DNA of 53,705 nucleotides from an uncultured Gammaproteobacteria bacterium (GCA_947259075.1 CAMYKQ010000065.1:1-53705), one strand, 5' to 3'. Positions 24,141 through 42,406 are shown, counted from the first letter of the stretch. The notes: generated from the letters alone by a model not told the origin. Translations and numbers: made by a program.

Positions 24141-24938
24141 ATGCGACACGTCATAGCAATAGTTTCAGCCGCAGCAGTGATGTTAGGGGTTCTGGCCCCG
24201 ACGGGAGCGTTTGCCTCTGATGCGTTTTATCCAAAAGGTGATGGCAACAAGGCCAATGGAGAAACGATTTTCAAGGAAGGTAAGGGCGAAGTGCCAGCCT
24301 GTCAGAGCTGTCATGGTGAGGATGGGTCAGGTAATGATGACATGGGGACGCCGCGTATTGCCGGGCAGTTCTTCACGTTTTTGTTGAAGCAGCTTGAAGA
24401 TTTCGCGGCCGATAAGCGGATGGATACGACCATGTTCGTGATGAATGCGAACGCCAAAGGTCTTTCGCAGCAAGATCGCCGTGACGTAGCCACTTATTTG
24501 GCCGCCCGGAAAATCGATTTCAAGGGTTCCGATTTGAAGGCCGTGGAAGCGGCTGGTCAGGTGCCGGTCGGTTTGGACTATAAGGGCCGTGCATTGGTGG
24601 AATACGGTAGCCCAACGCGTAACGACGGCTTCCCGAACAGCCTGGGTAGCAAAGGCCCGGGTGCGCCCGCGTGTAAGTCTTGCCACGGTTATGCCGGTGG
24701 TGGTGCGCCGCCCCTCTATCCCATGATTGGCAATCAGCGTTATGTCTACCTCGTCAATCAGCTGAAAAAGTGGCGTGATGGCAGTCGTGCCAACGATCCT
24801 ATGGGTCAGATGCAAGCTGTCGCGAGAAAATTGTCCGACGATGACATTCATAATGCGGCTGCTTACCTGACTGGTGCGAGCGATTTGACCAGCGGTAATC
24901 CTCGTACACCGTACGACAACCGTTTTGGTGACCATTAA
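24141..24938 (+). CDS. Dihaem cytochrome c, c4-type
   Basis: This periplasmic electron carrier has a signal peptide (about 1-25, ending GAFA) and two class I haem domains: CQSCH (residues 54-58) in ACQSCHGEDGSGNDDMGTPRIAG, described in parts, and CKSCH (178-182) with a matching LYPMIGNQ. At 265 residues it is somewhat larger than standard c4 (about 190-210). The ATG at 24141 has a strong GGGAGGGGG SD. It probably donates electrons to the oxidase encoded downstream. A terminator follows at about 25025. Confidence 0.88.
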   Translation: MRHVIAIVSAAAVMLGVLAPTGAFASDAFYPKGDGNKANGETIFKEGKGEVPACQSCHGEDGSGNDDMGTPRIAGQFFTFLLKQLEDFAADKRMDTTMFVMNANAKGLSQQDRRDVATYLAARKIDFKGSDLKAVEAAGQVPVGLDYKGRALVEYGSPTRNDGFPNSLGSKGPGAPACKSCHGYAGGGAPPLYPMIGNQRYVYLVNQLKKWRDGSRANDPMGQMQAVARKLSDDDIHNAAAYLTGASDLTSGNPRTPYDNRFGDH

Positions 24939-25121: not shown

Positions 25122-25676
25122 ATGAGTAAGCATCCACTGAAACGCGGTGAAAAAATCCTGTTGAGTGTTTTTGGGGTTTTTGCGACGCTGGCGGTAATAG
25201 CTTATATAGGCATCGAAACTGTCCGCCTGCGTTCAGATAAACCCCTCTTCCCTCAAACTACACATTTTGATTTCACGCCAGAAGGTAAGCAGGGCTCGTC
25301 TATTTACCTTAAGGCCAACTGTAATACATGTCATCGAGCGCTCCGGTCTGGTACGAGCATGGGCTTGTCCTTGGATGGGATTGGTTCTAAGCGCTCAGTG
25401 GAGTGGATCGAGAAATTTCTCCATGACCCGGAAAATGTGTATGGAGCGCAGACCTTGGATCATGGTATGGCGCCAAAAGAGGCGGCCTATGTGTCTAGGA
25501 TCCCGGCGGAGAATTTGCATTTGATCGCGGTCTTTCTTTCTGAGCTCAGGGCGGATCCGGGTTCTTCAGTAGCCAAGAGGCCGCCCGAGGGCCGCTCGGA
25601 ATTCATTGATAGCATGATAGGAACCTGGGCGCCGGATAGTTGGAAGGAAAAATACCAAGATATCCGCGAAAAATAA
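25122..25676 (+). CDS. Membrane-anchored monohaem cytochrome c
   Basis: The 184-residue protein has an N-terminal membrane anchor (about 11-31) and one haem site, CNTCH (67-71), followed by SLDGIGSKRSVEWIEKFLHDP; the Met of HGMAP is a likely sixth ligand. It shares its anchor-haem-LDGIGS layout with the protein at 32395, so the two look paralogous. It opens a run with a half-length CcoN-like gene and a thioredoxin-like gene and may take the electron-entry role that CcoP has in canonical cbb3 oxidases. Confidence 0.82.
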   Translation: MSKHPLKRGEKILLSVFGVFATLAVIAYIGIETVRLRSDKPLFPQTTHFDFTPEGKQGSSIYLKANCNTCHRALRSGTSMGLSLDGIGSKRSVEWIEKFLHDPENVYGAQTLDHGMAPKEAAYVSRIPAENLHLIAVFLSELRADPGSSVAKRPPEGRSEFIDSMIGTWAPDSWKEKYQDIREK

Positions 25677-25715: not shown

Positions 25716-26240
25716 ATGAATGACGTGTCTTGGTCTGCACAAGAGATTGAATATCGGCGTTATACCCTTTGGTTTGTCTATGCTTGTATCATCTACAGCA
25801 TCATTGGGTTTTCATGGGGGGCCTTGATGGGCGGCATTGCTGAGTTTCGGCATTTTGTCGATCACCGTGCTCATGGTGATCTGATCGTGCGCGGCCATAC
25901 CCATGTCAATCTTCTCGGTTGGGTGGAGATGGCCATCTTCGCTGCCGTTTATTACATTGTCCCTCGCTTGGTGAGGCGTAATATTTATAGTTTACGTTTG
26001 GTGAAGGTTCATTTCTGGATACACAATCTGGGTTTGATCGGGATGGTGGTTTTCTTTACAGTGGCGGGTGTGGCGGGTGGAATTAGCAGCCAAACGCTCG
26101 ATCCGGCCGAGGTCGAACAAATCATTCGGCCTTTCTTGGCCTTGGTCGGGGTGTTTGGCAGTCTTGTGCTGCTGGCTAATTTTATATGGGCTTATAATCT
26201 TTTCAGAACCTGCTCGGGTTGGGAAAAGGAATATGTCTAA
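25716..26240 (+). CDS. Half-length CcoN-like membrane protein
   Basis: The 174-residue protein has about five membrane helices. It aligns by eye with the C-terminal half of the CcoN-like protein at 28321: RGHTHVNLLGWVEMAIF matches AHAHLALLGMSSFLEIA, RRNIYSLRLVKVHFW matches RRKLYSLVLANFHFW, and the last helix ANFIWAYNLF matches GNMVWLYNMY. It keeps the HxH pair that binds haems in full-length CcoN but has none of the CuB ligands, so it cannot be a catalytic subunit alone. Its end overlaps the next gene by 8 bases. Confidence 0.75.
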   Translation: MNDVSWSAQEIEYRRYTLWFVYACIIYSIIGFSWGALMGGIAEFRHFVDHRAHGDLIVRGHTHVNLLGWVEMAIFAAVYYIVPRLVRRNIYSLRLVKVHFWIHNLGLIGMVVFFTVAGVAGGISSQTLDPAEVEQIIRPFLALVGVFGSLVLLANFIWAYNLFRTCSGWEKEYV

Positions 26241-26742
26241 GCGAATTCCGATCTTCATTATGTCGCTGCTCTTGGTGGGCGGATTGTCCGCTTGTGGCTT
26301 TGCGCCCGAATCTTCTCTCAAGGTGGGTGTGAAGGCCCCAGCCATTCAGACCAAAACGTTGGCGGATGTGGGCGGGGATTTTAGTCGGATGACATCCTAT
26401 CGCTATCCTGATGAACGGATGTATCAGCATTCCTTGGACAAGGCTTTGCAGCAAGGTAAGCCGATTCTTGTCGAGTTTGCGACACCTGGCCATTGCACCG
26501 TATGCGATGTCCAATTGCAGATGTTGAAGTCGCTGGTGAATAAATATGATCCCGAGGTCTTGTTCTTGCATATGGATCAATATGAAAATCCTGGTGCCTT
26601 TAAGGCATTCAACGTCAAAGGCGACCCCTGGACGTTTTTGATAGACCGTAATGGTGTCGTTCAGTTTAAACAGCCTGGCCGGATGTTGTACGGTGAGTTG
26701 GAAAGGCAGATTGAGCGCGTCCGAGCGAGCGGTCAGGGGTAG
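26233..26742 (+). CDS. Thioredoxin-like lipoprotein
   Basis: The 169-residue product has a lipoprotein signal ending LSAC (Cys21) and a thioredoxin fold with the redox pair CTVC (88-91) in FATPGHCTVCDV, and a later cis-Pro-like GDPWTFLIDRNG. By analogy with Sco- or TlpA-type proteins it may keep cysteines or a copper site reduced during cytochrome or oxidase assembly on the outer face of the membrane. The start is preferred for the signal; an upstream open frame overlaps the preceding gene without meaning. Confidence 0.78.
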   Translation: MSKRIPIFIMSLLLVGGLSACGFAPESSLKVGVKAPAIQTKTLADVGGDFSRMTSYRYPDERMYQHSLDKALQQGKPILVEFATPGHCTVCDVQLQMLKSLVNKYDPEVLFLHMDQYENPGAFKAFNVKGDPWTFLIDRNGVVQFKQPGRMLYGELERQIERVRASGQG

Positions 26743-26745
26743 AGA

Positions 26746-27204
26746 ATGGCGGAGAAGGGGAAGCGGTATGAGTTGCAGCAAGACCGCAAGGGGATGGTGT
26801 GGGACCTCTTATTGTATGTGCCCACGGTCACGGCGCTATTGCTGATCGGGGGCAAGTTGTGGTTCGGACCAGACAAAAACTGGTCTTATCTTTTGATTTT
26901 TCTAGGAACATTCTTTTTTCTGATAGGCTTTAATCGCATCATGAAGACACGTCTCATGGTGTTTCCGGCGTCGCCAGTGGCGTTGGAGATAGGCAAAGAC
27001 CGCGTTAGCCTGCAGTTGAGAAGCGGGGCGGTGGTGGATATCGTAAAAGATGTCCGGTTCTTCTCGGAGGTGGGTGGTAAAACCATCGCCTTGACCGGGA
27101 TGGATGCCTCAGGCCAAAAGCAGCAGTTCATCTTTCATCAGGGGCAGTTTGGTAATGAGTCGGCTTATAAGGATGCGAAGAGCTGGCTTGAGGTTTATCG
27201 CTGA
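26746..27204 (+). CDS. Membrane protein of unknown function (152 aa)
   Basis: Two close membrane segments (about 18-40 and 46-64) are followed by a soluble cytoplasmic part of about 85 residues with alternating strands (VALEIGKDRVSLQLRSGAV, DVRFFSEVGGKTIAL) and a final helix, a layout like a PH-type domain. No enzyme motif is seen. It starts 3 bases after the thioredoxin-like gene and is the last gene of that run. Confidence 0.65.
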   Translation: MAEKGKRYELQQDRKGMVWDLLLYVPTVTALLLIGGKLWFGPDKNWSYLLIFLGTFFFLIGFNRIMKTRLMVFPASPVALEIGKDRVSLQLRSGAVVDIVKDVRFFSEVGGKTIALTGMDASGQKQQFIFHQGQFGNESAYKDAKSWLEVYR

Positions 27205-27301
27205 TGCTTTCTAAGTGATTGAATGGCGCGCCTGCACGCCCTTGTGAGCCGCAAATTTTGCGTGGCATGTCGCCGCTTAAAGTGCCTGCTGTGATTATTT
27301 A

Positions 27302-27496
27302 CGAATTGCCTCTCCGTCTTCTCAAAATATCCCGCGCTAAAATAAGCATTACGATGGCGCCGATGATGACAGCTCCGCCCATTGCCATTGACTCCGTTTC
27401 TTCGCTAACTAAGCCGCCTATAAACATATGAACGGTGTAGGCGAGCATGGTAAGGGAGCTGAGCGCGACCAGGCCGTATATGATGACTTCTTTCAT
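27302..27496 (-). CDS. Small two-span membrane protein (64 aa)
   Basis: The product has two hydrophobic helices, about residues 4-27 and 39-55, and an Arg-rich end (ILRRRRGNS). It is unlike any family I can name. It faces the 26746 gene tail to tail and diverges from the oxidase operon. It could be another accessory membrane peptide of the oxidase or unrelated. Confidence 0.5.
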
Positions 27497-27806: not shown

Positions 27807-28097
27807 ATGGAAAACAAACTTACTTTCGGACGCCTGTTCTTTTTCTTGTTGGTGCCTGCGTTTACCACGGGAATGGGGAACGGGAGCGTGTTTGGCGCTG
27901 CTGTCATGTGCGCTGTTGGTCGTGGACCATACGATAACTGGGGCGGTTGGGGGATGGATGCCTATAACCCCGCGACCTTTTCCGGTTTCGTTGATTGGAT
28001 GATGATCTTGTTTGGTCTTGCCTTCGCTATTATTTCGCTGATGGCTATGATTAAGCATGGGCAAATTGAGTCGCAGCGCGACAACACCGCGTGGTAG
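27807..28097 (+). CDS. Membrane protein of the oxidase operon (96 aa)
   Basis: This has two hydrophobic segments (about 9-36 and 62-82) separated by a Gly/Trp/Tyr-rich loop with GRGPYDNWGGWGMDAYNP. There is no recognisable family. It is the first gene of the run leading to the CcoN-like subunit and has a very strong SD, so it may be an accessory subunit. Confidence 0.65.
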   Translation: MENKLTFGRLFFFLLVPAFTTGMGNGSVFGAAVMCAVGRGPYDNWGGWGMDAYNPATFSGFVDWMMILFGLAFAIISLMAMIKHGQIESQRDNTAW

Positions 28098-28167
28098 GCC
28101 GCCCTGTTTTACGGGCTGAGTAATAACGCCGTAAGATTAAATTTATTATTTTATAAAGGGGGAAGTT

Positions 28168-28257
28168 ATGGCTGGAATTGCAGGCGCATTTGGCATCGTC
28201 TTGGCGTTTTCAAGCATGTGGTTTTTTTGGTACTTGATGAACAAGATGACCGAGTGA
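28168..28257 (+). CDS. Very small single-span membrane protein (29 aa)
   Basis: An ATG preceded by AAAGGGGGAAG opens a 29-codon frame. The product starts MAGIAGAFG, continues IVLAFSSMWFFWYLM as one helix, and ends NKMTE. It lies 64 bp before the CcoN-like gene, where canonical operons have no gene. It resembles CcoM/CcoQ-type single-helix subunits in form, not clearly in sequence. Confidence 0.6.
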   Translation: MAGIAGAFGIVLAFSSMWFFWYLMNKMTE

Positions 28258-28320
28258 TAACGGTTGATTGCGCGGGTGTTTGAAAAAAACACTGGGGATT
28301 ATTAGGGAGAGGCTACTGCT

Positions 28321-29730
28321 ATGCTGTTAAAATATCTCTTTGCAAAAAACGAGGATATACCGGCCGGTTCGTCGACCATATTCTTTGGCTATTCGGCGAT
28401 ATTCTGGTTTGTGGTTGGTACAGGGTTAGGGTCATTCAATGCAGCTAAGCTCGCATTTCCGGATTTTGCTACCGGTGTCGAGCTTTTTGCGTTTGGCCAT
28501 ATGCGCCAGGTTCATGTGTTGGCGGTCATTCTGGGCTGGATTTCAATGGCCTTTGCGATGACGATGATGTATATGACACCGGCCTTGGGGAATACCAAGC
28601 TGTGGTCTGAAAAGCTAGGTTTGTGGACCGCATTTAACTGGAATGTCGGTCTCAGCTTAGGTTTGATCTTGTTGTGGCTGGGCTTCACCTCGGGTCGTGA
28701 ATATTCCGACTTGATTTGGCCGATTGACCTCGTGGTTATCTTCGGCGTGTTGGTCCCGCTGGGTATCAACGTGTGGATGACTATCGCGCAACGTAAAACG
28801 CAAGGCATTTACATTACCAACTGGTTCTTTGGTGCCTGTATTTTTATGTTGATTATCGTGTTTTTGGTAGGTAATTCAGCAGAGTTTTTCAATCTTACCG
28901 GGTTAACTGAAGGCTACCTCACGTTTTGGTTTGCCCATAACGTGTTGGGGTTATGGATTACCCCAGTTGCCGCAGGCATCGCTTATTACACGATTCCTAA
29001 ATTAACTGGTAATCCGCTTTATTCGCATCGTATCGGTCACTTGCACTTTTGGTCGATAATCGCGTTCTACTCAACGCCTGCTTCTCACCATCTTCTTTCA
29101 GCGCCGCTGCCGGAATGGTTGAAGTCTTTCGCGTCCGTGGAAGGTGTGTTGATCCTGATTCCCGCTATTGCCTTTGTCGCGAACATCCTTCTCACGATGA
29201 AAGGTCGTTGGAGTATGTTCGTGGAGAATGTGGAAACTAAATTCTCCGTGACGGGTGTGCTTTTGGCCATTCCGTTGAATATGCAAGGTGGTTTCCAGCA
29301 GACTCGTGCCATTAACTGGTATGTGCATGGCACCGGCTGGATTGTGGCGCATGCGCATTTAGCCTTGCTAGGTATGTCTAGCTTCTTGGAGATTGCTGCT
29401 GTCTATTTCGGGCTGCAGCAGGTGCTGCGCAGGAAGCTCTATTCCTTGGTGTTAGCTAACTTCCACTTCTGGTTCGTTATCATTGGCTTCTGTATCTACT
29501 GGATCTCCATGACCATCGCCGGTTTGATTCAGGGCGCGGGCAAGATCTACGAAGTGCCTTATATTGATGTCGTGATTGCCGAACATCCTTACATGATTGC
29601 CCGCTGGATCGGTGGGACGATGGTGTTCACGGGTAATATGGTGTGGTTGTACAACATGTATATGACTGCTCGTGAAGGTACTGTTGTGCCCAAGGGGCGA
29701 TATGCGCATGAGATGGCGTACGAGCGGTAA
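28321..29730 (+). CDS. ccoN: Divergent cbb3-type cytochrome c oxidase subunit I (CcoN-like)
   Basis: Catalytic subunit of a C-family haem-copper oxidase, 469 residues, 12 helices. Visible ligands: low-spin haem His65 (MRQVHVLAV) and His346, haem b3 His344 (VAHAHLALLG), CuB His206 (FWFAHNVLG), His256 and His257 (PASHHLLSAPLPEW), and the active-site Tyr250 (HFWSIIAFY). Canonical stretches EYSDLIWPID and YITNWFFGA are kept. At the place of the conserved Glu of cbb3 oxidases (Glu323 in P. stutzeri numbering, from memory) there is Gln322 (NMQGGFQQ). Ligands plus Tyr argue for O2 reduction rather than NO reduction. Confidence 0.88.
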   Translation: MLLKYLFAKNEDIPAGSSTIFFGYSAIFWFVVGTGLGSFNAAKLAFPDFATGVELFAFGHMRQVHVLAVILGWISMAFAMTMMYMTPALGNTKLWSEKLGLWTAFNWNVGLSLGLILLWLGFTSGREYSDLIWPIDLVVIFGVLVPLGINVWMTIAQRKTQGIYITNWFFGACIFMLIIVFLVGNSAEFFNLTGLTEGYLTFWFAHNVLGLWITPVAAGIAYYTIPKLTGNPLYSHRIGHLHFWSIIAFYSTPASHHLLSAPLPEWLKSFASVEGVLILIPAIAFVANILLTMKGRWSMFVENVETKFSVTGVLLAIPLNMQGGFQQTRAINWYVHGTGWIVAHAHLALLGMSSFLEIAAVYFGLQQVLRRKLYSLVLANFHFWFVIIGFCIYWISMTIAGLIQGAGKIYEVPYIDVVIAEHPYMIARWIGGTMVFTGNMVWLYNMYMTAREGTVVPKGRYAHEMAYER

Positions 29731-29778
29731 TTTAGGCATTGGCATTATCGAAGTCTAATTATCCTTCAAGTGATGTGT

Positions 29779-29824
29779 GCCTCCGGTGGGCTTACCTAAA
29801 AAATAGGGGGGGCGCACCGGAGGC
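29779..29824 (+). other. Hairpin between the CcoN- and CcoO-like genes
   Basis: GCCTCCGGTG (29779-29788) pairs perfectly with CACCGGAGGC (29815-29824) across a 26-base loop. It lies in the 121-bp gap between the two main oxidase genes. There is no T-run after it, so it is not an ordinary terminator; a role in mRNA stability or stoichiometry is a guess. The SD of the next gene (GGGGAGG) lies just beyond. Confidence 0.55.
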
Positions 29825-29851
29825 TAGGGGAAAACAGGGGAGGAATCATAC

Positions 29852-30808
29852 GTGGCATTTCAAACATATAAGCTAGGAGCGGCTGGTATCGGAGGCATGT
29901 TCGGATTGTCTATGACAATTACGTTGATGTTTCCCAGCTTTGATTTTCGGTCCGCTGAGTCGACTTGGGTTGGTTTGGATAAACAACTTTCGGCTGGGTT
30001 AAGGATAGGCTGGAGTTATGAAGACCCATTCGTGCAAGGCGCGGGTAAGCCTCTTACGGTAATCTTGAACGCGGACCCCAAGACCGGCGAGGCGTATGAC
30101 CCACCCAGGAGGGCTTATGTTTATCCGCCAGGTACGCCATTTGCTTCGGGCGTGGCTCATCCGGACAATCTTGGTCCCACGGTTAAAAAGCTGAGTTTTG
30201 AGCGCGGTAAAATTGACCAAGCAGATAATAGCCAAGGCGCGGTCTTTACGATTGATTTTGCTGATCTCAATGGTGAAGAGTGGGCGTATGTTGTAAATGA
30301 GACTGCCATCAATGGCTGGACGCCTCAAATGGCTCTTAGCGCTGCGGGTGATGCAAACACCCGGTATGTTGGTCGTGGTAAGACTGTGTACATCACGGAA
30401 GGTTGCTGGTGGTGCCATACTTTATTGCCTGAGCATACCCAGGACTGGCAGGTGTTCGGAACGCCGCCATATCTAGGCGACTTTAACGGTGAAATGCCGA
30501 CGGCCTTTGGTTCAGATCGTAAAGCTCCTGATATCCTTCATGTGGCATCCAGAAACTCTTCTCGCGAATGGATGATGATGCATTTCTTTAACCCTCGTCT
30601 GGTGCAGCCTAATTCAATCATGCCGCGCTTTGATTATTTGTGGGGTAAGGTGGATATCAATGGTAATCCCATTGATTACGCCAAGTGGCGTACGGATTAC
30701 AACGCCTATCGGAAAGGTGAGCGTGCCTATCCTCCTGAAGTGCCGGAGTACGCGCGCGACACGGAAATACGAGCGTTGATCGACTGGGTGTTAACGAGTC
30801 TGAAGTAA
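29852..30808 (+). CDS. ccoO: CcoO-like monohaem cytochrome c subunit with large insertion
   Basis: Membrane-anchored cytochrome subunit of the oxidase, 318 residues, GTG start with GGGGAGG nine bases upstream. The anchor is about residues 8-28, haem site CWWCH (185-189) in ITEGCWWCHTLLPEHTQDW, and the likely Met ligand is Met257 in NSIMPRFDYLW. The region around these matches CcoO (EGCYYCH..., NPR...P.S.MP). Canonical CcoO is about 200 residues with haem near residue 70; here about 115 extra periplasmic residues separate anchor and haem. Confidence 0.85.
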   Translation: MAFQTYKLGAAGIGGMFGLSMTITLMFPSFDFRSAESTWVGLDKQLSAGLRIGWSYEDPFVQGAGKPLTVILNADPKTGEAYDPPRRAYVYPPGTPFASGVAHPDNLGPTVKKLSFERGKIDQADNSQGAVFTIDFADLNGEEWAYVVNETAINGWTPQMALSAAGDANTRYVGRGKTVYITEGCWWCHTLLPEHTQDWQVFGTPPYLGDFNGEMPTAFGSDRKAPDILHVASRNSSREWMMMHFFNPRLVQPNSIMPRFDYLWGKVDINGNPIDYAKWRTDYNAYRKGERAYPPEVPEYARDTEIRALIDWVLTSLK

Positions 30809-30824
30809 AACGGGGGGGTAAAGT

Positions 30825-31478
30825 ATGGCTTGGAAATTTGATAATCCACTCTATTCTATGAGTGACGAGCAAACGAATAAGGCGACTATAGCGTTATGGG
30901 AGAAAGAAAAGCACGGTGGCTTATGGGCGGCAAATAGCCGCTTACCCTTCCCGTTGACTATTCTGATTGCGCTTACTATTACAACGGCGTTCTTGGTTAC
31001 GATGCCGATTTGGGGGCAGCGTCCTAGTGCCTTACTCTATGCGCCGATGGTGGACTTGATGGATACACCTGAGGTGCAGCAAAAAGCAACGCCAGAAGAG
31101 AAGATGGCTTATCTCACCACGCGTGCGATGGAAGTGCATAAGGCGGCCTCCGATTCTCGTCTGCCCGGTTTGTTGGAGCGGCATCCGATTCGGTGGGATG
31201 ATTTGCAATTGGCTGCTCCCCATATACGAGAAATTCAGTCGTCAAATAGTACGTATGGTCTTGAGAGTTATACCGTGGTGGGGGATCAGGTTGTTCTCGG
31301 TAACTTTGAAGGTAGTTATCGCGCTGATGGTAAGCGTGAGCGTACCCAGCCTTGGTGGGATAAAGGCTACACAATTGATCTTTTCTATGTCACATACTTT
31401 GTGATAACGATGGTCTTTGTGTGCAAGCGCCTCCCTCATTTCTCACAAAAGCCTGATATGTCTAAGGTAGCAAAGTAA
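30825..31478 (+). CDS. Two-span membrane protein of the oxidase operon (217 aa)
   Basis: The protein has an N-terminal helix (about 44-66) ending in TMPIWGQRP, a periplasmic domain of about 115 residues (APMVDLMDTPEVQQ ... RWDDLQLAAPHIREIQ) and a C-terminal helix (about 185-203). There is no haem motif. The TxPxWGxRP block recurs in the protein at 40667. In position it replaces the ccoQ/ccoP genes of canonical operons, so it may be a third structural subunit. Confidence 0.7.
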   Translation: MAWKFDNPLYSMSDEQTNKATIALWEKEKHGGLWAANSRLPFPLTILIALTITTAFLVTMPIWGQRPSALLYAPMVDLMDTPEVQQKATPEEKMAYLTTRAMEVHKAASDSRLPGLLERHPIRWDDLQLAAPHIREIQSSNSTYGLESYTVVGDQVVLGNFEGSYRADGKRERTQPWWDKGYTIDLFYVTYFVITMVFVCKRLPHFSQKPDMSKVAK

Positions 31479-31491
31479 GGGGAGATAAATC

Positions 31492-31638
31492 ATGATTAAC
31501 TTGGATTACGCGCCTGCGGTCTTTGCGAGTATTATCCTTATAGTGCTGATTGCCCCGGCGCTGTACGGGATATTATTGGTGGATAAATTTTGGAAAAAAA
31601 ATCAGCAGGATAAAACCTCTGATGACGTATTTAATTAA
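31492..31638 (+). CDS. Small single-span membrane protein (48 aa)
   Basis: An ATG preceded by AAGGGGAG opens a 48-codon frame. One helix (about 8-30, ending YGILLVDKFW) is followed by a short charged tail (KKNQQDKTSDD). The layout, helix then charged tail at the end of the ccoN-ccoO run, is like CcoQ, though no sequence match is claimed. A terminator follows at 31666, so it is the last gene of this operon. Confidence 0.65.
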   Translation: MINLDYAPAVFASIILIVLIAPALYGILLVDKFWKKNQQDKTSDDVFN

Positions 31639-31764: not shown

Positions 31765-32109
31765 ATGATGATTGATCGCTTGACGTCATTGTTGTTGGAA
31801 GAGCATGCGCAGCGATTGATGTATTCGAAACAAGGTATATATTCCATGCTTGTGGAAGCCAACGACAATAAATTGCTTGGCATTGATATGAGCATAGAAA
31901 GCGTAAGCTCGCAGTCCTATAGTAATTTTATCTTCGGTTTCTTGATTGTCTCGTTAATTATATTTGGGGTAATTATTTATTTTTATTTACCGAAGAAAAA
32001 AGGCGCGCTAAAAACAGGCGAAAAGATTATGTTTGGCGCCATTATTATGGGTATGGTCATCGCGGTGGCTATGGGATATACCCAATTAATAGGTGGGTAT
32101 TTATTCTAG
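31765..32109 (+). CDS. Two-span membrane protein (114 aa)
   Basis: It has an amphipathic N-terminal part (about 50 residues), then two helices (about 52-73 and 87-107) joined by a Lys-rich loop (LPKKKGALKTGEK). No family is recognised. This stretch is strikingly AT-rich for the window (15 G+C of 60 bases at 31921-31980). It heads a run of tightly spaced genes up to 35159. Confidence 0.6.
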   Translation: MMIDRLTSLLLEEHAQRLMYSKQGIYSMLVEANDNKLLGIDMSIESVSSQSYSNFIFGFLIVSLIIFGVIIYFYLPKKKGALKTGEKIMFGAIIMGMVIAVAMGYTQLIGGYLF

Positions 32110-32120
32110 GAAGGTGGCAT

Positions 32121-32408
32121 ATGAAAGAATTTGTCGAGTCATTACCAGATGGGTGGACTATTTATTTTTGGATGATTTTCGCTGTCGGGATATTGATCGC
32201 GGCGGGCTTTATGCTGCGTTGGGCTTCCAAAAACGCCCAATTTGACGAGGACATCAAATATACGGTGTTTAACGAGGATGATAGGGATAAGATGGATCCC
32301 GATGAATTTGAAAAGTACCGTGAGGTGATTGCCCATCAAACCGAGTTGCGAAAAGATTTTCTGAAACAAAAGGCCGAGGCACAATCGGGTAAACATGCGA
32401 GCAGGTGA
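32121..32408 (+). CDS. CcoS-like protein with C-terminal extension
   Basis: The 95-residue protein has one helix (about 14-34) followed by RWASKNAQFDEDIKYTVFNEDD, which matches the CcoS pattern (helix, RxxQFDD, then acidic end). CcoS is needed for cofactor insertion into cbb3 oxidases and is normally 50-70 residues; here about 45 charged residues follow that are predicted helical. Its 3' end overlaps the next gene by 14 bases. Confidence 0.6.
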   Translation: MKEFVESLPDGWTIYFWMIFAVGILIAAGFMLRWASKNAQFDEDIKYTVFNEDDRDKMDPDEFEKYREVIAHQTELRKDFLKQKAEAQSGKHASR

Positions 32409-32910
32409 AAAAGGTATTTTAATTTTAATCGGGGTGATAGTTGTAGGCTTGATGGGATATAGAGCTTTTAAACTTACCGTCGATGAGGCTGATCCCGGTA
32501 TTCCGTTTTACACCACGGCTTCTCATGATGAGAAGAGGCGGGCGGAGCTGATTTATAAGCGCAATGGTTGCGAGAATTGCCATTCTTTATGGCTGGTGCG
32601 AGATATGATGTCAAGTGTCCCCGCTCCCGCGCTTGATGGTATCGGCTCGATTCGCGATGAAGCTTGGTTTTATAATTATTTTTCCGCGGAGCAGCCACAA
32701 ACTATTCTGCCTTCGCGTCTTAAAGCCGAATTCCGTATGCCCTCCTACGCCCATTTGCCCGAGGAAGAAAGGCGCTTGCTTGCGGCCTATATGGGTAGTC
32801 TCAAAGTAAAGGACTGGTATTTGTATGAAACTAAAAAATCAGAATACGAAAAATTGACGGGGGAGCCTTACCCAATGGTAAAAGGTCATGATGCCACGCC
32901 TGAAAATTAA
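32395..32910 (+). CDS. Membrane-anchored monohaem cytochrome c
   Basis: The 171-residue protein has an N-terminal anchor (about 6-24) and a haem site CENCH (59-63), followed by ALDGIGSIRDEAW and a likely Met ligand in FRMPSYAHLP. It shares the anchor, haem and LDGIGSxR layout with the protein at 25122. It starts inside the CcoS-like gene and ends inside the next gene (23-base overlap), which implies strong translational coupling. Confidence 0.82.
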   Translation: MRAGEKGILILIGVIVVGLMGYRAFKLTVDEADPGIPFYTTASHDEKRRAELIYKRNGCENCHSLWLVRDMMSSVPAPALDGIGSIRDEAWFYNYFSAEQPQTILPSRLKAEFRMPSYAHLPEEERRLLAAYMGSLKVKDWYLYETKKSEYEKLTGEPYPMVKGHDATPEN

Positions 32911-33412
32911 GCTTGCTGACGTTGGGATGGCCGCCATAGCGATTCTGGCTGGCGCTCTGGTTATATACTTGGGTGATACCTTGCTTGGGGTTAGGCTGGA
33001 GTATTTTGCCGGTGTGGCGACCTTTAGTCCTTTGTGGGTTTTGGATTTATTTTTCGTGCCTTTCGTTGCGGGCGTAGTTGTATCATCCATATACGGTATG
33101 GGTGGGAAAATGCTAGCGCATATATCGCCTTTGGTAGTACGTATTCCAAGTTTTTATATGCTAAGCCATGGTGAGATGCCGCCACCGGGTGTGGAAGTGT
33201 TGCCCATGGGTTATTGGCTTTTGGTTGTGATTATGTCCGTGGAGTTTGCGGCTTTTGGTGGTGTGGTGGGTGAAATTCTCATTAAAAAAACTTACGGACG
33301 CACGCCAAAAGAGCGCTTGCATAAAAAATATCAAAAGGCTGAATCGCTAAAAGATGAATTGGCGGGGCCGCCGGGCGTGGTAGAACAAAAGACGGGTGTC
33401 GTAGAAAAGTGA
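32888..33412 (+). CDS. Multi-span membrane protein (174 aa)
   Basis: It has three to four hydrophobic segments (about 13-32, 44-68, 104-128) and a Lys/Glu-rich cytoplasmic tail. A conserved-looking loop reads LSHGEMPPPGVEVLPMGYW. No family is recognised. It overlaps the cytochrome gene before it, and its TGA overlaps the GTG of the next gene (GTGA). Two adjacent ATGs (32888, 32891) are possible. Confidence 0.65.
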   Translation: MMPRLKIKLADVGMAAIAILAGALVIYLGDTLLGVRLEYFAGVATFSPLWVLDLFFVPFVAGVVVSSIYGMGGKMLAHISPLVVRIPSFYMLSHGEMPPPGVEVLPMGYWLLVVIMSVEFAAFGGVVGEILIKKTYGRTPKERLHKKYQKAESLKDELAGPPGVVEQKTGVVEK

Positions 33413-34476
33413 AGCTGCAATATAACAAAGGTATCCCGAATGCGACTGGCGCCGATGTCGAGCGCAGAAAAAAATATTTGGCCGCGACTTTAGTGACGTG
33501 CGTTGTTGTGAGTTTGGTGGGGGGCACGATTCATGTGCTCGAGCTCGGCGCGAACCGTATGCATGACATGCGTGGTAAGGCGCAAATTGATCTTGAGGCG
33601 GAGAAGAATCACGTGCGCGCGGCCGGCGAGGACTTTTTCCGGCAATTTGATCATGAGCTCGGGAAGGCGGAGCTTGAAATATATACCGAGGCCGAAGCGG
33701 AAGCCTTGCTGACGCCGGAGCAGTGGCAAGAACTCTCCACCATGGTGACGATCCCCACGGGCGAATATACCGTTGGTACAGATAGCAGTCGCGCCGACGT
33801 GCAGGATCGGCCGCAGCATAAAGTGAAATTGCCCGCCTTTCAAATCGATAAATATCCCGTGACTAATGCGCAATACGCGCGCTTTGTCGCGGCGACTTCT
33901 TACCGCCCGCCTTTGCATTGGGTGAAGGGTAAAATTCCCGCTGGTCTTGAAATGCACCCCGTTACCATGGTGTCCTGGTTCGATGCTAAAGCGTACGCGG
34001 CTTGGGCGGGTAAGCGTTTGCCTGGTGAGCGCGAATGGGAAGCCGCGGCGCGTGGCACGGATGGCCGGCGTTGGCCATGGGGCGACAAGATGGACCCCTC
34101 TCGCCTGAATACGTATTATCAGATCGGCGCTACTACGAAGGTGCTTGAATATCTGGTTGGCGCCAGTCCATATGGTGTGATGGATATGGCGGGCAATGTG
34201 AGTGAATGGATGGCGGATGATTTTCTGCCGTACTCGGGTAGTGACGCGCCCGAGGAGATGTTTATGGCCAAAGCTGCGCAAGTGCCCGCCTCTGGCGCCG
34301 ACCGTTCCATGCGTGTGGCTGATTTCGCGCTAACGAACGAGCGTTACAAAGTCTTGCGCGGTGGTTCATGGAAAAGTGATCCGTTTTCAACCTCTGCTTA
34401 CCACCGTAATTTCTCATGGCCCAATTTCGCCTCCAACTTTTTTGGATTTCGCTGTGTTAAAGACGTTGTATTTTAA
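33409..34476 (+). CDS. Membrane-anchored SUMF1/FGE-fold protein
   Basis: The 355-residue protein has an N-terminal anchor (about 24-45), a coiled or charged linker, then a formylglycine-generating-enzyme-like domain (about 110-353): MVTIPTGEYTVGTDS, FQIDKYPVTNAQYARF, WFDAKAYAAWAGKRLPGEREWEAAARG, GNVSEWMADDF, VLRGGSWKSDP, FFGFRCV. The catalytic Cys pair of true FGE is absent in the STSAYHRNFSW region, so sulfatase activation is unlikely. NirV of nitrite reductase clusters is a similar case. GTG start overlapping the previous stop. Confidence 0.8.
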   Translation: MKLQYNKGIPNATGADVERRKKYLAATLVTCVVVSLVGGTIHVLELGANRMHDMRGKAQIDLEAEKNHVRAAGEDFFRQFDHELGKAELEIYTEAEAEALLTPEQWQELSTMVTIPTGEYTVGTDSSRADVQDRPQHKVKLPAFQIDKYPVTNAQYARFVAATSYRPPLHWVKGKIPAGLEMHPVTMVSWFDAKAYAAWAGKRLPGEREWEAAARGTDGRRWPWGDKMDPSRLNTYYQIGATTKVLEYLVGASPYGVMDMAGNVSEWMADDFLPYSGSDAPEEMFMAKAAQVPASGADRSMRVADFALTNERYKVLRGGSWKSDPFSTSAYHRNFSWPNFASNFFGFRCVKDVVF

Positions 34477-34775: not shown

Positions 34776-35159
34776 ATGAGCGCATGGCGAGAGATGCAGG
34801 TGATAAGTTTCAGTAAATTTTTGATGTTATTGGTTTGCATGGTTCTTGTCACGAGTGGTTTGGGCTCAATGGCAAAGGCCGAGAAGGCGGATGAAGGGCT
34901 TGAGGTGCTTCGCGGTTTCACCGAAAAGGCGGTGGAAGAGAGCGAGGCGGTCAAGATTTCGGATCAGAAAAAACACAAAATCTTGTTCGTCATGGGCGTT
35001 TTATTGTTGGTTGGCATTATCTCGACCGCCCTCTTGGGTGTTTCCATGGTCGTGTTTGGTAAGCAGGTCTTTGTCGCGCATATGGTGTGTGCGGGCTTGA
35101 GCGTCTTTCTTTCGGTGGCGCATGCGGTCACCGCCATGGTCTGGTTTTTCCCATTCTGA
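34776..35159 (+). CDS. Membrane protein with N-terminal signal-like segment (127 aa)
   Basis: It has a first hydrophobic segment ending LGSMAKA (signal or anchor), a charged region (EKADEGLEVLRGFTEKAVEE), and two further helices (about 70-92 and 98-125). No family is recognised. The frame extends upstream to 34662, but the ATG at 34776 gives the cleanest N-terminus; ATG 34794 is possible. It is the last of the tightly packed accessory run. Confidence 0.6.
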   Translation: MSAWREMQVISFSKFLMLLVCMVLVTSGLGSMAKAEKADEGLEVLRGFTEKAVEESEAVKISDQKKHKILFVMGVLLLVGIISTALLGVSMVVFGKQVFVAHMVCAGLSVFLSVAHAVTAMVWFFPF

Positions 35160-35184: not shown

Positions 35185-37839
35185 ATGCCGCAATCGGATC
35201 CTCTAGCCGCGCCCCTGAGCCGCGCTGCCATCGATGGCGCGCAAGCAGGGCATCGTTTAGTCGTTTTCGCATATTTTCTCAGTGGCCTGACCTGCATCGC
35301 CTATGAGGTGCTTTGGGTGCGCATGCTCACCCTGCAATTCGGCGCCAGCATCTTCGGCGTGGTGCTCACCGTGTCGGCTTTTATGGCCGGCTTGGGGCTG
35401 GGCAGCCTGCTCGGTGTGCGCTTCAGCAATAAATTGAAATCACCTTTACTGTGGTGTGCGCTGTTGGAGGCGGGCGTGGCCTGCTTCGCGCTGATAATGC
35501 CGTGGCTATTTCAGTGGCTAGAGGGAGGCTTGGACAGGCTAGCGGTTGGCGTTGATCTTTCGCATTGGCATGCGCTGCAAGGTGGCGCGAGTTTCTTGAT
35601 GTTGTTTTTGCCAGCTTTGGCCATGGGGGCGGGGTTCTCGCTGATCTTGCGCGGCTTGTCGGCAACGCCGGTGAGTCTCGGCAAGCTCTATGGCCTGAAC
35701 ACCTTGGGCGGCGTGCTGGGCGCTCTGTTGCCCTTATTGTTGTTGCCGCTGCTGGGCTGGGCGCTGTCTTTGCAATTTATAGTCGTCGTGGGGTTCGTCG
35801 TAGCGGTCATGATTGCCTTGGGCGCGCGAGCCGTGCCGTTACCGCTGGCCGCGCAGGTTACGTTCTCTTCCACTGGGGAGCGGCCGCCATTGTTTGTGTT
35901 ATTGAGTTACGCCGGGGTCGGTGCGGGCGCCTTGATGTTGCAGGTGGGATGGACGCGCTTGTATGGCATGGTGTTGTTGCGCACCGAGTATGTGCTGGCG
36001 GTGCTGCTGGCGGTGTTTCTTTTAGGCATTGGGCTCGGCAGTCTGCTGGCCCGGCGCAGTCTATTGCAAAAGTGGTTCGCCTGGCTGCCGCCTATCGCCG
36101 GCATGTTCGCTTTGCTCAGTCTGTGGGGCTTGCCCTGGCTGGCGGGCTGGGCCGACCGTCAACAATTTGAGTCCTTGTCGGCCGCGCTGATTTGGCAGGG
36201 CTTGGCGTTGGCGCTGCTGACCTTCCCCACGACCTTGATGCTAGGTGCTTGGCTGCCTTTGTTGAGTGAGCGCATCGCGGCGGGAAAAAATGTGGCGGGC
36301 GCATGGCTGTATGGCGCCAACTCGGTGGGGGCGGCGCTGGGTGCGATGCTGGGCGGGGTCGTGTTGGTGCCGTGGATGGGTACGAGCGCGGTCATCGTGC
36401 TCGCGGCGTTGTTGCTGTTCGTGAGTGGCATGGGGAGCATATCAAACCGCCGGCCCTGGTTGACGGCGCCGGTGCTGGTGGCCGCCGCGGTGCCGGTGCT
36501 GGCCTTTCCCGCGGTCAGTGTGCTGCTGCCCGTGACCCAGGCCGAGGTGAAGGATCTGGCGCTCTACGAGGACGCGTTATCCATTACTCACGTAGTAGAA
36601 CAGCCGGACGGCCAGCGTTTACTGCTGGCGGATCTGCAGCGCATGGATGCGTCCTCCGATCCGGTCGCGGTGGTCGGCCAGCAAAACCAGGCGCGCTTGC
36701 CACTGTTGTTGCATGAGGCGCCGCGCTCGGTGCTTTTTCTGGGCTTGGGTACGGGGATTTCCGCTTCGGGTGCCTTGCTGTTTCCAGACATCGAGATAAC
36801 GGCGGTTGAGCTGTCGGAGGGGGCGATCCGCGCGGCGGAGCGCTGGTTTGCCCCGGTGAATGCGGGCGTGATGGGGCGGATCCGTGTGGTGAATGATGAT
36901 GCCCGGCGATTTCTGCGTGCTGACACGGCCAAGTATGACGTCATTATTGGTGATCTCTTTCACCCGGATTTGATCGGGCGCGGCAATCTCCTTTCGGTGC
37001 AGCAGTTCCAGCAGGCGCGCGGGCATTTGACGGCCAATGGCTTGTTTGTGCAATGGCTCGCTTTGAATCAGTTCGATGCCGAATCGTTGGCGATTGTGCT
37101 GCGCAGTTTTAGACGGGTATTCCCCGATGCGCGTTTATTCGTCGAGGGTTTTCGTTTGGCGCTGGTGGGGCCACGCGATCACTGGCGGGGGGCGCCCGCG
37201 GTGCTGAATAATCTGGCGCGCATGCCGGCGGAGATGCGTGTGGCGGCCACTGGGAGCGAGGGGCCGTGGACTTGGCTGGGGCGTTACTGGGGTCCTATTT
37301 TGGATAGTCCGGGGCCGCTACAGGATGAATGGCGGCCTAAAATCGAGTTTAAGCTGCCCCAGTCGCGTTATGCCGGTTCATTCGATCTAGGCGGGCTGCT
37401 GGATCAATTGTTGTGGCAACGCCAAGACCTCGGGGTTGCGGCATCGGCCTTGGGGGTTGAGGCTAAAGATCAGGAGGCGTTCGAACGGGCCTTTATCGCC
37501 TCGGATTTGTCGCTACGCAGTTGGATGCTGTCTTTGCGGGGTAATGCGCAGGAAGCGCAGCGCTTGCTGCGCGCGGCTTATGAGGCTAATCGGCAAGATC
37601 GGTGGATTGCATTTAATTTGGCTGATCAAATGCTCTTGTCTCTGCCGCAAGCCATACGCCAGGGGCGAGATGAGCGCGATGCCTTGAAAGCAGTGCTGGA
37701 GGTGCATCCGGATCATGCAGGGGCGCTACGAGCGCTTTGGCGGCTTTATCAAGCGGCAGGTGATAGCGACGAGGCGCAACGCCATTGGGGCCGTTTGCGG
37801 AGGCTGAGTCCGCTTGAGCGAGAGGCGGGCCTTAATTAA
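35185..37839 (+). CDS. Fused membrane transporter-like/spermidine synthase-like protein
   Basis: The 884-residue protein has about 12 membrane segments (residues 25-450; SGLTCIAYEVLWVRML is the typical start), then a Rossmann methyltransferase-like domain of the spermidine synthase family (about 510-690) with VLFLGLGTGISASG, the acidic ITAVELSE and YDVIIGDLFHPDL. The last 110 residues look like TPR helices (RLLRAAYEANRQDRWIAFNLAD). It probably does not make spermidine in the usual way; membrane fusions of this type are widespread and uncharacterised. GC content is back to the window's high level here. Confidence 0.8.
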   Translation: MPQSDPLAAPLSRAAIDGAQAGHRLVVFAYFLSGLTCIAYEVLWVRMLTLQFGASIFGVVLTVSAFMAGLGLGSLLGVRFSNKLKSPLLWCALLEAGVACFALIMPWLFQWLEGGLDRLAVGVDLSHWHALQGGASFLMLFLPALAMGAGFSLILRGLSATPVSLGKLYGLNTLGGVLGALLPLLLLPLLGWALSLQFIVVVGFVVAVMIALGARAVPLPLAAQVTFSSTGERPPLFVLLSYAGVGAGALMLQVGWTRLYGMVLLRTEYVLAVLLAVFLLGIGLGSLLARRSLLQKWFAWLPPIAGMFALLSLWGLPWLAGWADRQQFESLSAALIWQGLALALLTFPTTLMLGAWLPLLSERIAAGKNVAGAWLYGANSVGAALGAMLGGVVLVPWMGTSAVIVLAALLLFVSGMGSISNRRPWLTAPVLVAAAVPVLAFPAVSVLLPVTQAEVKDLALYEDALSITHVVEQPDGQRLLLADLQRMDASSDPVAVVGQQNQARLPLLLHEAPRSVLFLGLGTGISASGALLFPDIEITAVELSEGAIRAAERWFAPVNAGVMGRIRVVNDDARRFLRADTAKYDVIIGDLFHPDLIGRGNLLSVQQFQQARGHLTANGLFVQWLALNQFDAESLAIVLRSFRRVFPDARLFVEGFRLALVGPRDHWRGAPAVLNNLARMPAEMRVAATGSEGPWTWLGRYWGPILDSPGPLQDEWRPKIEFKLPQSRYAGSFDLGGLLDQLLWQRQDLGVAASALGVEAKDQEAFERAFIASDLSLRSWMLSLRGNAQEAQRLLRAAYEANRQDRWIAFNLADQMLLSLPQAIRQGRDERDALKAVLEVHPDHAGALRALWRLYQAAGDSDEAQRHWGRLRRLSPLEREAGLN

Positions 37840-38599: not shown

Positions 38600-39127
38600 T
38601 TGATTTTGCATCCCCCGCAGCCCGCCGCTGAATTACGTCAGCTGCTCAAGTTTTTGCTTGGAGCGGCATTCTTCCTTTTTGTCGGCACGGTGCATGGCGT
38701 GCTGCAAGTCCTTCCCCCCATACGGGCGTGGTTGGACTCCGTAGGCAGTCCGATCAGTGGGCCTGGCCACATGATTGACCCGCTGGCCCACGCCCATATC
38801 AATGTCGTTGGTGGCCTAGTCATCATCGGGATGGCGGTGACCTATTATTTGCTTCCAATTTTGTCGAATAAGCCCCTGTGGTCGAGACGCTTGGTTGATC
38901 ATTCGTTTTGGTGGACCGCGTTGGGGGTGAGTGGGTTTTACCTCACTTTGATGGTTTTCGGTATCGTTGAAGGTAATTTGTTGCTGTCTGATCCCAAGGC
39001 CGTACCGGATGTCCATCGCTATTACGGCCCGTGCATCAGCGTGGTTGCCACGGTGATGGGTGTTGGTTTCTGGGTGTTTTTCACTAATGTCTTTATTACC
39101 TTCAGAACCGTCTACAAGAAAGCATGA
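38600..39127 (+). CDS. Second half-length CcoN-like membrane protein
   Basis: The 175-residue protein has five helices. AHAHINVVGGLVIIGMAVTYYLLP corresponds, in parts, to the HxH helix of CcoN, and SFWWTALGVSGFY to the next helix, so it resembles the C-terminal half of CcoN and the protein at 25716. The CuB ligands are missing. The start is a TTG (38600), with another TTG at 38606 as an alternative. Its TGA overlaps the ATG of the next gene. Confidence 0.72.
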   Translation: MILHPPQPAAELRQLLKFLLGAAFFLFVGTVHGVLQVLPPIRAWLDSVGSPISGPGHMIDPLAHAHINVVGGLVIIGMAVTYYLLPILSNKPLWSRRLVDHSFWWTALGVSGFYLTLMVFGIVEGNLLLSDPKAVPDVHRYYGPCISVVATVMGVGFWVFFTNVFITFRTVYKKA

Positions 39128-40666: not shown

Positions 40667-41089
40667 CTATTTTTTTTGTTCTTTTTCGAGTGCCGCCGCG
40701 GCTTGTTGTTCCTTTTTGCGCATGCGCCGCGCGCGGCCATCGACCATGTAGTAGATGGCGCCCGCCATGGTGATGACCCACACCGCGCCGGCGACGATGC
40801 CCCAGTCGAACCAGGGGCGCTCATAACCAGGGCGTACGCCCCAGAAGGGAAAGGTGAGACCGGTGGCGACGAGAAGGAGCACGAAAAAGAGCGCGAAAAA
40901 CCAGTAGGGGACGCCGTGATCGGACGAAGGGTCCGCCATTTTTTCGAGCATCTCCCAATCTTCGAGACCGCGTTTGTTGATGCGGTCTTCATCGCTGGCG
41001 TAGCCGAAGTGATCGCCGCGTTTTTCACCCCACTGGGTTTCAGGGGTGGCGCTCATCTTCTCGCGTTCATCATTCTCTTTTGCGGCCAT
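40667..41089 (-). CDS. Two-span membrane protein with WGxRP motif (140 aa)
   Basis: It has a hydrophilic N-terminus of about 60 residues, a helix (about 62-82) ending in LTFPFWGVRP, a second helix (about 94-113) and an Arg/Lys/Glu-rich tail. The FPFWGVRP block matches MPIWGQRP in the 30825 protein, also just after a helix. It starts 6 bases after ccoG, so it is in the same operon. Confidence 0.65.
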   Translation of the reverse strand: MAAKENDEREKMSATPETQWGEKRGDHFGYASDEDRINKRGLEDWEMLEKMADPSSDHGVPYWFFALFFVLLLVATGLTFPFWGVRPGYERPWFDWGIVAGAVWVITMAGAIYYMVDGRARRMRKKEQQAAAALEKEQKK

Positions 41090-41095
41090 GGGGCA

Positions 41096-42406
41096 TTAAC
41101 CTCGTTCTGCGTAGTGCTGTATCTGAAAACTATCTTTCCAGCCATCCGCCGCTTGGGCGTGGACCGTGATGTTGTAAAAACCCGTCGCGAGCCCAGGCTT
41201 GATATGCAGGTTGATATCTTTGCGATCCGCCGTAGTGAAAGCCGCTTGAGTGTTGTCGAGGCTGTACATGTTTTCGGGGAGTCCTTCCACTTGCACGCTG
41301 ACGCTGGCCGCTTGATAGGTCTTATTGGCGATATTGATGCGATAGTCTTGGATTTGCTTGCCGTGGTTGACTTCCGCGCGATAGACCGAGAGATGATATG
41401 GGTTGTAATCGATGATGCCCCAGGCGAGCATGCTTATCGCAAGGATGAAAACCGGGGTGACCCATTTGGTGCGGTTGAGCAGGCTGATCAGATCCATTTT
41501 ATTGTTGTCGCGCTGTTTGCCGCGCCGGTGGCCGAACTTCAGGCTCAGCAGTCCGGGCTCACCGTGTTTGGTGTGGAGGCTGTCACAGGCGGTGATGCAT
41601 TCGCCGCAGTTGATGCAGCTGTCGAAGGTGAGTGTGTTGCGCGGGTCGATGCTGACTGGGCATTTGGTTTCGCAATAGTTGCACTTGCCGCATTCCTCGC
41701 CGCGGGAGGCGTCGTATTCGATGTGCAGGGTGTCGCGGGTTTTGAATAGAAATTGCCACATGCGGTAGATGCACATGTAACGGCAGACGTAGTGGCGGAT
41801 GACGGCGATATTGGTGGCGGCGATGAAAACAAAGACCGCGTAAATCCAGTACAGTGAATTGGTCAGGGCTGGGTGCGTCTGCAGGGTTAAAAAGGCCCAA
41901 GCTGCCTCGGGCGGCAGAAAATAAAGCATCGGAATGATGCAGATCAGCATCGATGCCGCGATAATTTTTACGCCCAGCACTACCCAGTTTTTCCAGTTGT
42001 TTTTCCCCGATGAGACGCGCGAGCCGCTCGGCTCGTCGCCCCAGTTGATCATGGCGCGCTTGCCGAGCAGGCGCGAGGTGAGGTTGTTGGCCCAAGTGGA
42101 GAAGGTGTTTTGCGGGCAGACCCAGCCGCAGAAGACATTGCCCATGGTGGAGTAGAGTACGATCAGCAGGCAGGCGGCGGCGAGCCAGAAGCCGAAGACG
42201 ATGAAGAAGTCCGCGAACCAGATTTGGTGGTTGAGGATGACGAAGCCGGAGGAGACGTCGATGCGGAACAGGCCAAGCAATGGGATGAGAATAAGGGCGG
42301 CGATCGTGCCGATCCGGGTCGATTGCCGCCAGCGCGCCATTTTCGCCCCGCCACTTTTGGGCTCAGTCACAATGGGGATGCGCTTAAATGTCGCGTGTTC
42401 ACTCAT
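41096..42406 (-). CDS. ccoG: Cytochrome c oxidase accessory protein CcoG
   Basis: CcoG (RdxA/FixG) is a membrane-bound ferredoxin-like copper reductase needed for cbb3 assembly. The 436-residue protein has five helices and two cluster motifs: CGKCNYCETKCP and CINCGECITACDS, the first Cys near residue 215, then a C-terminal periplasmic Ig-like domain. All marks are intact. The presence of CcoG supports the cbb3 nature of the nearby oxidase. It leads a four-gene leftward run. Confidence 0.93.
   Translation of the reverse strand: MSEHATFKRIPIVTEPKSGGAKMARWRQSTRIGTIAALILIPLLGLFRIDVSSGFVILNHQIWFADFFIVFGFWLAAACLLIVLYSTMGNVFCGWVCPQNTFSTWANNLTSRLLGKRAMINWGDEPSGSRVSSGKNNWKNWVVLGVKIIAASMLICIIPMLYFLPPEAAWAFLTLQTHPALTNSLYWIYAVFVFIAATNIAVIRHYVCRYMCIYRMWQFLFKTRDTLHIEYDASRGEECGKCNYCETKCPVSIDPRNTLTFDSCINCGECITACDSLHTKHGEPGLLSLKFGHRRGKQRDNNKMDLISLLNRTKWVTPVFILAISMLAWGIIDYNPYHLSVYRAEVNHGKQIQDYRINIANKTYQAASVSVQVEGLPENMYSLDNTQAAFTTADRKDINLHIKPGLATGFYNITVHAQAADGWKDSFQIQHYAERG

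Follow-up and report, generated by a model that had tools for sequence, protein, structure and literature searches.

What kind of enzyme is encoded at positions 27807-31638 of a 53,705-nucleotide DNA stretch from an uncultured Gammaproteobacteria bacterium (GCA_947259075.1, CAMYKQ010000065.1:1-53705; the whole stretch is denoted here as the window)? An initial annotation, made from the DNA alone, described a divergent four-gene operon related to cbb3-type cytochrome oxidases (cbb3), encoding a CcoN-like catalytic subunit, a CcoO-like protein, a two-span protein, and a helix protein of 48 amino acids (aa), and proposed a distinct subclade of C-family oxidases with an altered subunit set. In all likelihood, the locus encodes a working O2-reducing cytochrome c oxidase that belongs to the C family of haem-copper oxidases (HCOs), on a lineage outside canonical cbb3. 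The coordinates of all genes discussed are compiled in Table 1.

Active site and placement of the catalytic subunit

The CcoN-like open reading frame (ORF) carries H65, H206, H256, H257, H344, and H346 as haem/CuB ligands, Y250 as the cross-link Tyr, and furthermore E274, A316, and Q322; the histidines, Tyr250, and Gln322 stand at the numbers that the initial annotation had given. The six histidines, Y250, and Q322 are invariant in 117 of 117 CcoN copies of the clade, which stem from Gammaproteobacteria, Gallionellales, and Zetaproteobacteria (the two collections used overlap, hence there are fewer distinct genomes than copies). In an HMMER alignment with CcoN of P. stutzeri (3mk7_A, E 2e-65), unbroken in this region, Y250 is paired with Y251 and Q322 with E323, the conserved Glu opposite which the annotation had placed it. 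The window CcoN is thus predicted to hold a complete haem b/haem b3-CuB/Tyr active site, with the C-family arrangement of haem b, b3, and CuB histidines and a cross-link Tyr on a separate helix. As in other C-family enzymes, a CcoO-type monohaem subunit is found instead of CuA: the protein following CcoN is indeed CcoO-like, matching FixO (7e-16) and containing one CxxCH motif. Residues R57, E122, and E125 of the periplasmic proton cavity in the canonical enzyme (PMC3431322) correspond to R62, E127, and D130.

Both proteins fail as canonical equivalogs, with 233 bits for CcoN against the NCBI ccoN model (TIGR00780, cut-off 583) and 57 bits for CcoO against the ccoO model (cut-off 201). A FastTree phylogeny rooted with c-type nitric oxide reductases (cNORs) recovers the clade with a support of 0.998 and a branch length of 1.04. 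An IQ-TREE phylogeny that includes more distant relatives separates all C-family CcoN, the window clade included, from nitric oxide reductases (NORs) with an ultrafast bootstrap (UFBoot) of 100; in the same tree, canonical cbb3 is monophyletic and the window clade lies outside (UFBoot 100). The proposal of a distinct C-family subclade is borne out by these trees, and the case that would have spoken against it, a position inside canonical CcoN with Glu at the Glu323 site, is not what is seen. Across carriers from Gammaproteobacteria, Gallionellales, Ferrovum, and Zetaproteobacteria, CcoN identity amounts to 72-98% with gene order kept, and therefore the feature is not a product of chance. Judged by its sequence, the window clade is a lineage outside canonical cbb3 within the C family.

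Compared with canonical CcoNOQP (P. stutzeri, 3mk7), the window system is alike in the CcoN ligands, the Tyr, the Ca-site Glu (E127), the Arg (R62), the CcoO haem domain, a small Q-like helix protein, and CcoS-/CcoG-like helpers. It differs in CcoN itself (~27-31% identity; Gln for Glu323, Ala for Tyr317, Gly-His for Ser240-Ile, and a Glu in helix VIII), in a CcoO insert, a haem-free third subunit, mini-CcoN partners, and a ~20-gene cluster.

Gln322 had been taken as a pointer to a different proton path. The residue is present as described, but this interpretation did not stand. Among 34 other C-family CcoN sequences, the site is occupied by Glu in 33 and by Gln in one (locus L154, on the Paraburkholderia plasmid pBN2), and a fused enzyme (locus L212), likewise non-canonical, also carries Gln. 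As a unique signature of the clade Gln322 was therefore ruled out, and its occurrence in two other deep C-family enzymes means that it alone cannot indicate a new proton path. In view of these enzymes and the tree, Glu323 rather looks like a derived trait of canonical cbb3, each extra lineage being represented by one sequence. Better candidates for an altered proton path, unlisted in the initial annotation, are three clade-specific changes: A316 where other C-family enzymes have Tyr (P. stutzeri Y317), G239-H240 replacing Ser-Ile (P. stutzeri S240), and E274 replacing Phe in helix VIII. S240 and Y317 are what we take to be K-pathway residues of the P. stutzeri enzyme.

Third subunit and neighbouring small proteins

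The CcoO-like protein, whose homologues nearly all contain one CxxCH, harbors an insert of ~125 aa (about 36-165) between membrane helix and haem domain. Its structural model (predicted local distance difference test, pLDDT, 75) matches CcoO (3mk7_B) over residues 172-318 only, and weakly (Z 3.1); a fold search with this model gave no significant match for the insert.

The third gene was annotated as encoding an unknown two-span protein. Two spans are supported by its model, with long helices at 42-62 and 179-201, but the protein is not without relatives. FixP_N, the N-terminal domain of CcoP, is detected at E<0.1 in 18 of 32 homologues, several of them above the gathering score, and a profile of the third subunit aligns with canonical CcoP in hhalign (probability 89, E 2.3e-6) over the first membrane helix and the preceding GG-x-x-E-x-N-N-x-L-P segment. 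Together with the lack of a CxxCH motif in all 110 homologues, this relation argues that the third subunit is a CcoP relative that keeps the N-terminus and has neither of the two cytochrome c domains. No match was found for the profile among PDB sequences, and none of significance in a fold search with the model (pLDDT 85). A Glu just before the first helix, invariant in CcoP, is kept in many third-subunit homologues; in the window protein this site is Ala, and in its nearest relatives Ala/Thr.

A blind FixP_N search of 40 genomes returned 13 weak matches (22-28 bits), 12 of them inside the third-subunit gene. Strong matches (at least 65 bits) are confined to five of the 40 genomes (G009, G101, G242, G372, and G454), each of which has a non-clade CcoN. 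The genome of the window organism (99.9% complete) contains no FixP_N above threshold. A dihaem CcoP, the primary electron acceptor of canonical cbb3, is thus absent from the window as initially reported, and a normal ccoP elsewhere, which would have undone the idea of an altered subunit set, was looked for and not found in this genome. CcoP is not simply missing, however, as a haem-free relative stands in the third-subunit gene. Together with the results on Gln322, this suggests that Glu323 and a dihaem CcoP are traits of canonical cbb3 and not of the whole C family.

The 48-aa helix protein is present behind the two-span protein, as described; homologues are found in only 48 loci. The 140-aa protein encoded further downstream is ~30% identical to the haem-free third subunit over a stretch of 65 aa and may be a second FixP_N relative.

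Probable oxygen reduction and alternative readings

In the genome of the window organism, the COX1 proteins comprise the window CcoN and two mini-CcoN only, cytochrome bd was not found, and a bc1 cytochrome b is present. As the sole full-length COX1, the window CcoN is therefore the one protein recognised as terminal oxidase of a c-type chain. Among 30 gammaproteobacterial carrier genomes, 22 have no other full-length COX1, and 18 of these 22 are also devoid of bd. The genome of Candidatus (Ca.) Nitrotoga fabula (G651, isolate ZN8) likewise contains the clade CcoN and two mini-CcoN as its only COX1 proteins and no bd; this species is an aerobic nitrite oxidiser known from an isolate, and its kinetics were determined from O2 uptake (PMC6050957). 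By gene content, the enzyme is the sole recognised O2-reducing enzyme in many uncultured bacteria and in the cultured species Ca. Nitrotoga fabula. O2 reduction is very likely and the best-supported function because a sole HCO without bd is found in its own, in 18 of 30 related, and in the N. fabula genomes. The initial deduction from ligands and Tyr is supported in this respect by the invariant site and the sole-oxidase status.

For electrons and protons, the following route can be inferred. Anchored or periplasmic cytochromes c would hand electrons straight to the CcoO haem, with no dihaem CcoP in between; the electrons would then pass to haem b and on to the b3-CuB centre, where O2 is reduced to water. 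Protons would enter via a remodelled K-type route, with S240 replaced by Gly and Y317 by Ala (P. stutzeri numbering) and with the new H240 and E274. Two anchored monohaem cytochromes and one dihaem cytochrome encoded nearby are probable electron donors or replacement subunits. Known carriers include Nitrotoga, Gallionella, Sideroxydans, and Ferrovum; as these bacteria depend on nitrite or Fe(II), the enzyme may be adapted to donors of high potential.

A variant compatible with this explanation assumes that the complex permanently includes one of the anchored monohaem cytochromes (25122-25676 or 32395-32910) in place of the CcoP haems, which would bring the haem count near the canonical one. 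Both proteins are membrane-anchored, contain one CxxCH in every homologue, and are clustered with the oxidase in nearly all loci, and in the related L154 system CcoNO is followed by a single cytochrome c gene; just as well, however, both proteins might act as mobile donors in the manner of cytochrome cy. The variant is a serious possibility, if somewhat short of an even chance. A more far-reaching proposal, which we regard as tentative and lean against, treats the enzyme as a separate C-family subtype and not as a cbb3 oxidase, with direct electron entry at CcoO, a remodelled proton route (without the K-channel Ser and Tyr but with the new His240 and Glu274), a pumping yield tuned to the small span between Fe(II) or nitrite and O2, and two mini-CcoN dedicated to assembly.

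It is highly improbable that the enzyme is an NOR or a dual O2/NO enzyme on the C-family/NOR branch. Points in favour are the kinship between C-family enzymes and NORs, the ability of canonical cbb3 to reduce NO (PMC8780969), and the retention of the cavity residues R57 and E122 (PMC3431322) as R62 and E127; cNOR (NorB, loci L155/L156) also shares the haem ligand His pattern. Against this, none of the aligned NORs has the Y250 that every clade copy contains, NorB is distant in the tree whereas the clade branches with CcoN, and a species that oxidises nitrite aerobically, and whose O2 uptake was measured, has the clade enzyme as its sole HCO; an NOR identity was rejected on these grounds. Least credible of all is an ordinary cbb3 oxidase with its dihaem CcoP encoded elsewhere. 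In its favour, carriers are plainly annotated as cbb3 or ccoNOP in publications (PMC6050957, PMC10993476). Against it, CcoN falls outside canonical CcoN and far under the ccoN cut-off, the window organism's genome lacks a FixP_N above threshold, and all strong FixP_N matches of the 40-genome search lie in genomes with a non-clade CcoN.

Several points weigh against the interpretation as an O2-reducing oxidase on a lineage of its own with a rebuilt electron and proton supply. The node of the clade itself has a UFBoot of only 72 in IQ-TREE, and the deep branch order is moderately supported. The K-pathway assignments depend on structural literature on P. stutzeri. The third subunit of the window is itself below FixP_N significance, the link depending on homologues and the profile. 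The N. fabula genome is that of ZN8 and not of the strain studied in PMC6050957, and its completeness is not stated. Biochemistry for any clade member was not found in the literature.

If the interpretation holds, entire groups of bacteria that oxidise Fe(II) or nitrite would rely on the clade enzyme to reduce O2. In annotations and discussions it nevertheless passes for plain cbb3, and a high O2 affinity and proton pumping are ascribed to it on the model of canonical enzymes, although these have a different electron-entry subunit and differ at residues proposed for the proton path.

Conserved cluster and related enzymes

The four-gene scope of the initial annotation proved too narrow, as the system is a much larger, conserved cluster of ~20 genes. 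By tblastn of each neighbouring protein, the same order was found in 28 gammaproteobacterial loci, a few of them rearranged or cut by contig ends. The cluster starts with the dihaem cytochrome c, an anchored monohaem cytochrome c, mini-CcoN 1, the thioredoxin-like protein, the 152-aa protein, and the 65-aa protein on the opposite strand; it continues with the 96-aa protein, CcoN, CcoO, the third subunit, the 48-aa and 114-aa proteins, and the CcoS-like protein, and ends with the second anchored monohaem cytochrome c, the 174-aa protein, the FGE-sulfatase-like protein, a small membrane protein, and the spermidine-synthase-like protein. Genes for the CcoG-like protein, the 140-aa protein, and mini-CcoN 2 are usually found near the cluster. 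The same cluster occurs in loci of Candidatus Nitrotoga, Gallionella, Sideroxydans, and Ferrovum and in genomes of families f200, f220, and f233 of the same phylum, which are read as Zetaproteobacteria from the two-form cbb3 pattern described in PMC7029218.

Table 1. Predicted genes of the oxidase cluster, with positions counted from the first letter of the window
Feature	Length (aa)	Position	Strand	Basis
Dihaem c4-type periplasmic cytochrome (Cyc1-like), likely electron donor		24141-24938	+	2 CxxCH in 79/79 homologues
Membrane-anchored monohaem cytochrome c		25122-25676	+	1 CxxCH in 98/98 homologues
Mini-CcoN 1	174	25716-26240	+	COX1 4e-18 over model 307-431
Thioredoxin-like lipoprotein, CxxC, probable haem c/Cu maturation factor		26254-26742	+	Thioredoxin 9e-7
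Membrane protein	152	26746-27204	+	conserved position
Membrane protein	65	27299-27496	-	conserved position
Small membrane protein directly upstream of ccoN, opens interval 27807-31638	96	27807-28097	+	conserved position
CcoN-like catalytic subunit	469	28321-29730	+	COX1 8e-74; TIGR00780 233 bits
CcoO-like monohaem subunit, CxxCH at 185	318	29852-30808	+	FixO 7e-16 over 175-266
Third subunit, two membrane helices, FixP_N-related, no haem motif	217	30825-31478	+	FixP_N, hhalign
Single-helix protein, CcoQ position	48	31492-31638	+	ORF, conserved position
Membrane protein	114	31765-32109	+	conserved position
CcoS/FixS-like assembly protein	95	32121-32408	+	FixS E 0.003, sub-threshold
Membrane-anchored monohaem cytochrome c	171	32395-32910	+	1 CxxCH in 110/110 homologues
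Membrane protein	174	32888-33412	+	conserved position
Membrane-anchored FGE-sulfatase/SUMF1-like protein		33409-34476	+	PF03781 3e-55
Membrane protein		34800-35159	+	conserved position
Membrane/spermidine-synthase-like protein	884	35185-37839	+	PF01564 4e-8
Mini-CcoN 2	175	38600-39127	+	COX1 9e-10
Two-helix protein, paired with CcoG-like gene	140	40667-41089	-	short similarity to third subunit
CcoG-like ferredoxin-type accessory protein		41096-42406	-	TIGR02745 6e-37, below cut-off

Both stand-alone mini-CcoN match only the last third of CcoN, i.e. the C-terminal part of subunit I, and each has an invariant HxH haem-ligand motif (H61 and H63 in mini-CcoN 1, H64 and H66 in mini-CcoN 2). Two such short COX1-like matches accompany the oxidase in nearly every carrier genome. 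The proteins probably help in haem b insertion or serve as accessory haem subunits, which makes them candidate new haem-b assembly factors. The CcoS-like protein shows a QFDExIxxxxFxEDD motif similar to CcoS of locus L217. The FGE-sulfatase/SUMF1-like gene lies within the oxidase cluster of nearly all loci, where a formylglycine- or EgtB-type role is unexplained, and the conserved 884-aa protein has a tetratricopeptide repeat-like C-terminus.

Papers on iron oxidisers describe two cbb3 forms, denoted as 'proximal' and 'distal' after Ducluzeau 2008 (PMC7029218, PMC10734462, PMC8788666), with two CcoN forms in Zetaproteobacteria and Gallionellaceae that differ in subunit composition (PMC8788666). 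In Sideroxydans lithotrophicus, according to these papers, levels of the proximal ccoNO rise on Fe(II), and a cbb3 cluster contains a Cyc1 homologue, just as the window cluster contains the dihaem cytochrome. One Sideroxydans genome has both forms; there, the gene for the dihaem cytochrome lies next to the clade cluster (L079) but not next to its canonical counterpart (L217), which makes the window lineage the probable 'proximal' form. The clade is an early-branching relative of cbb3 oxidases, a real and functionally important variant that is not wholly unknown. In the text consulted of the papers on the two forms, neither the haem-free third subunit nor the Gln, the mini-CcoN, or the conserved cluster is described; part of these findings may already be published in Ducluzeau 2008.

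Two further non-canonical C-family enzymes share Gln at site 322. The Paraburkholderia aromaticivorans pBN2 enzyme (WP_095423610), 32% identical to the window CcoN, differs from the clade in keeping Tyr at 316 and in having no haem-free CcoP. Its locus (L154:8731-15593) encodes CcoN, CcoO, a cytochrome c, a P-type ATPase, and a molybdopterin oxidoreductase, another arrangement devoid of CcoP; a search for more such enzymes around genome G318 returned only clade and canonical forms. The second enzyme is a fused CcoN-CcoO-CcoP of 971 aa (L212:3028-5940), which, unlike the window clade, carries three haem c motifs in one chain and keeps Tyr at 316. Its arrangement resembles that described for Nitrospina gracilis (PMC3578206), and the gammaproteobacterium encoding it (G242) holds three C-family oxidases.

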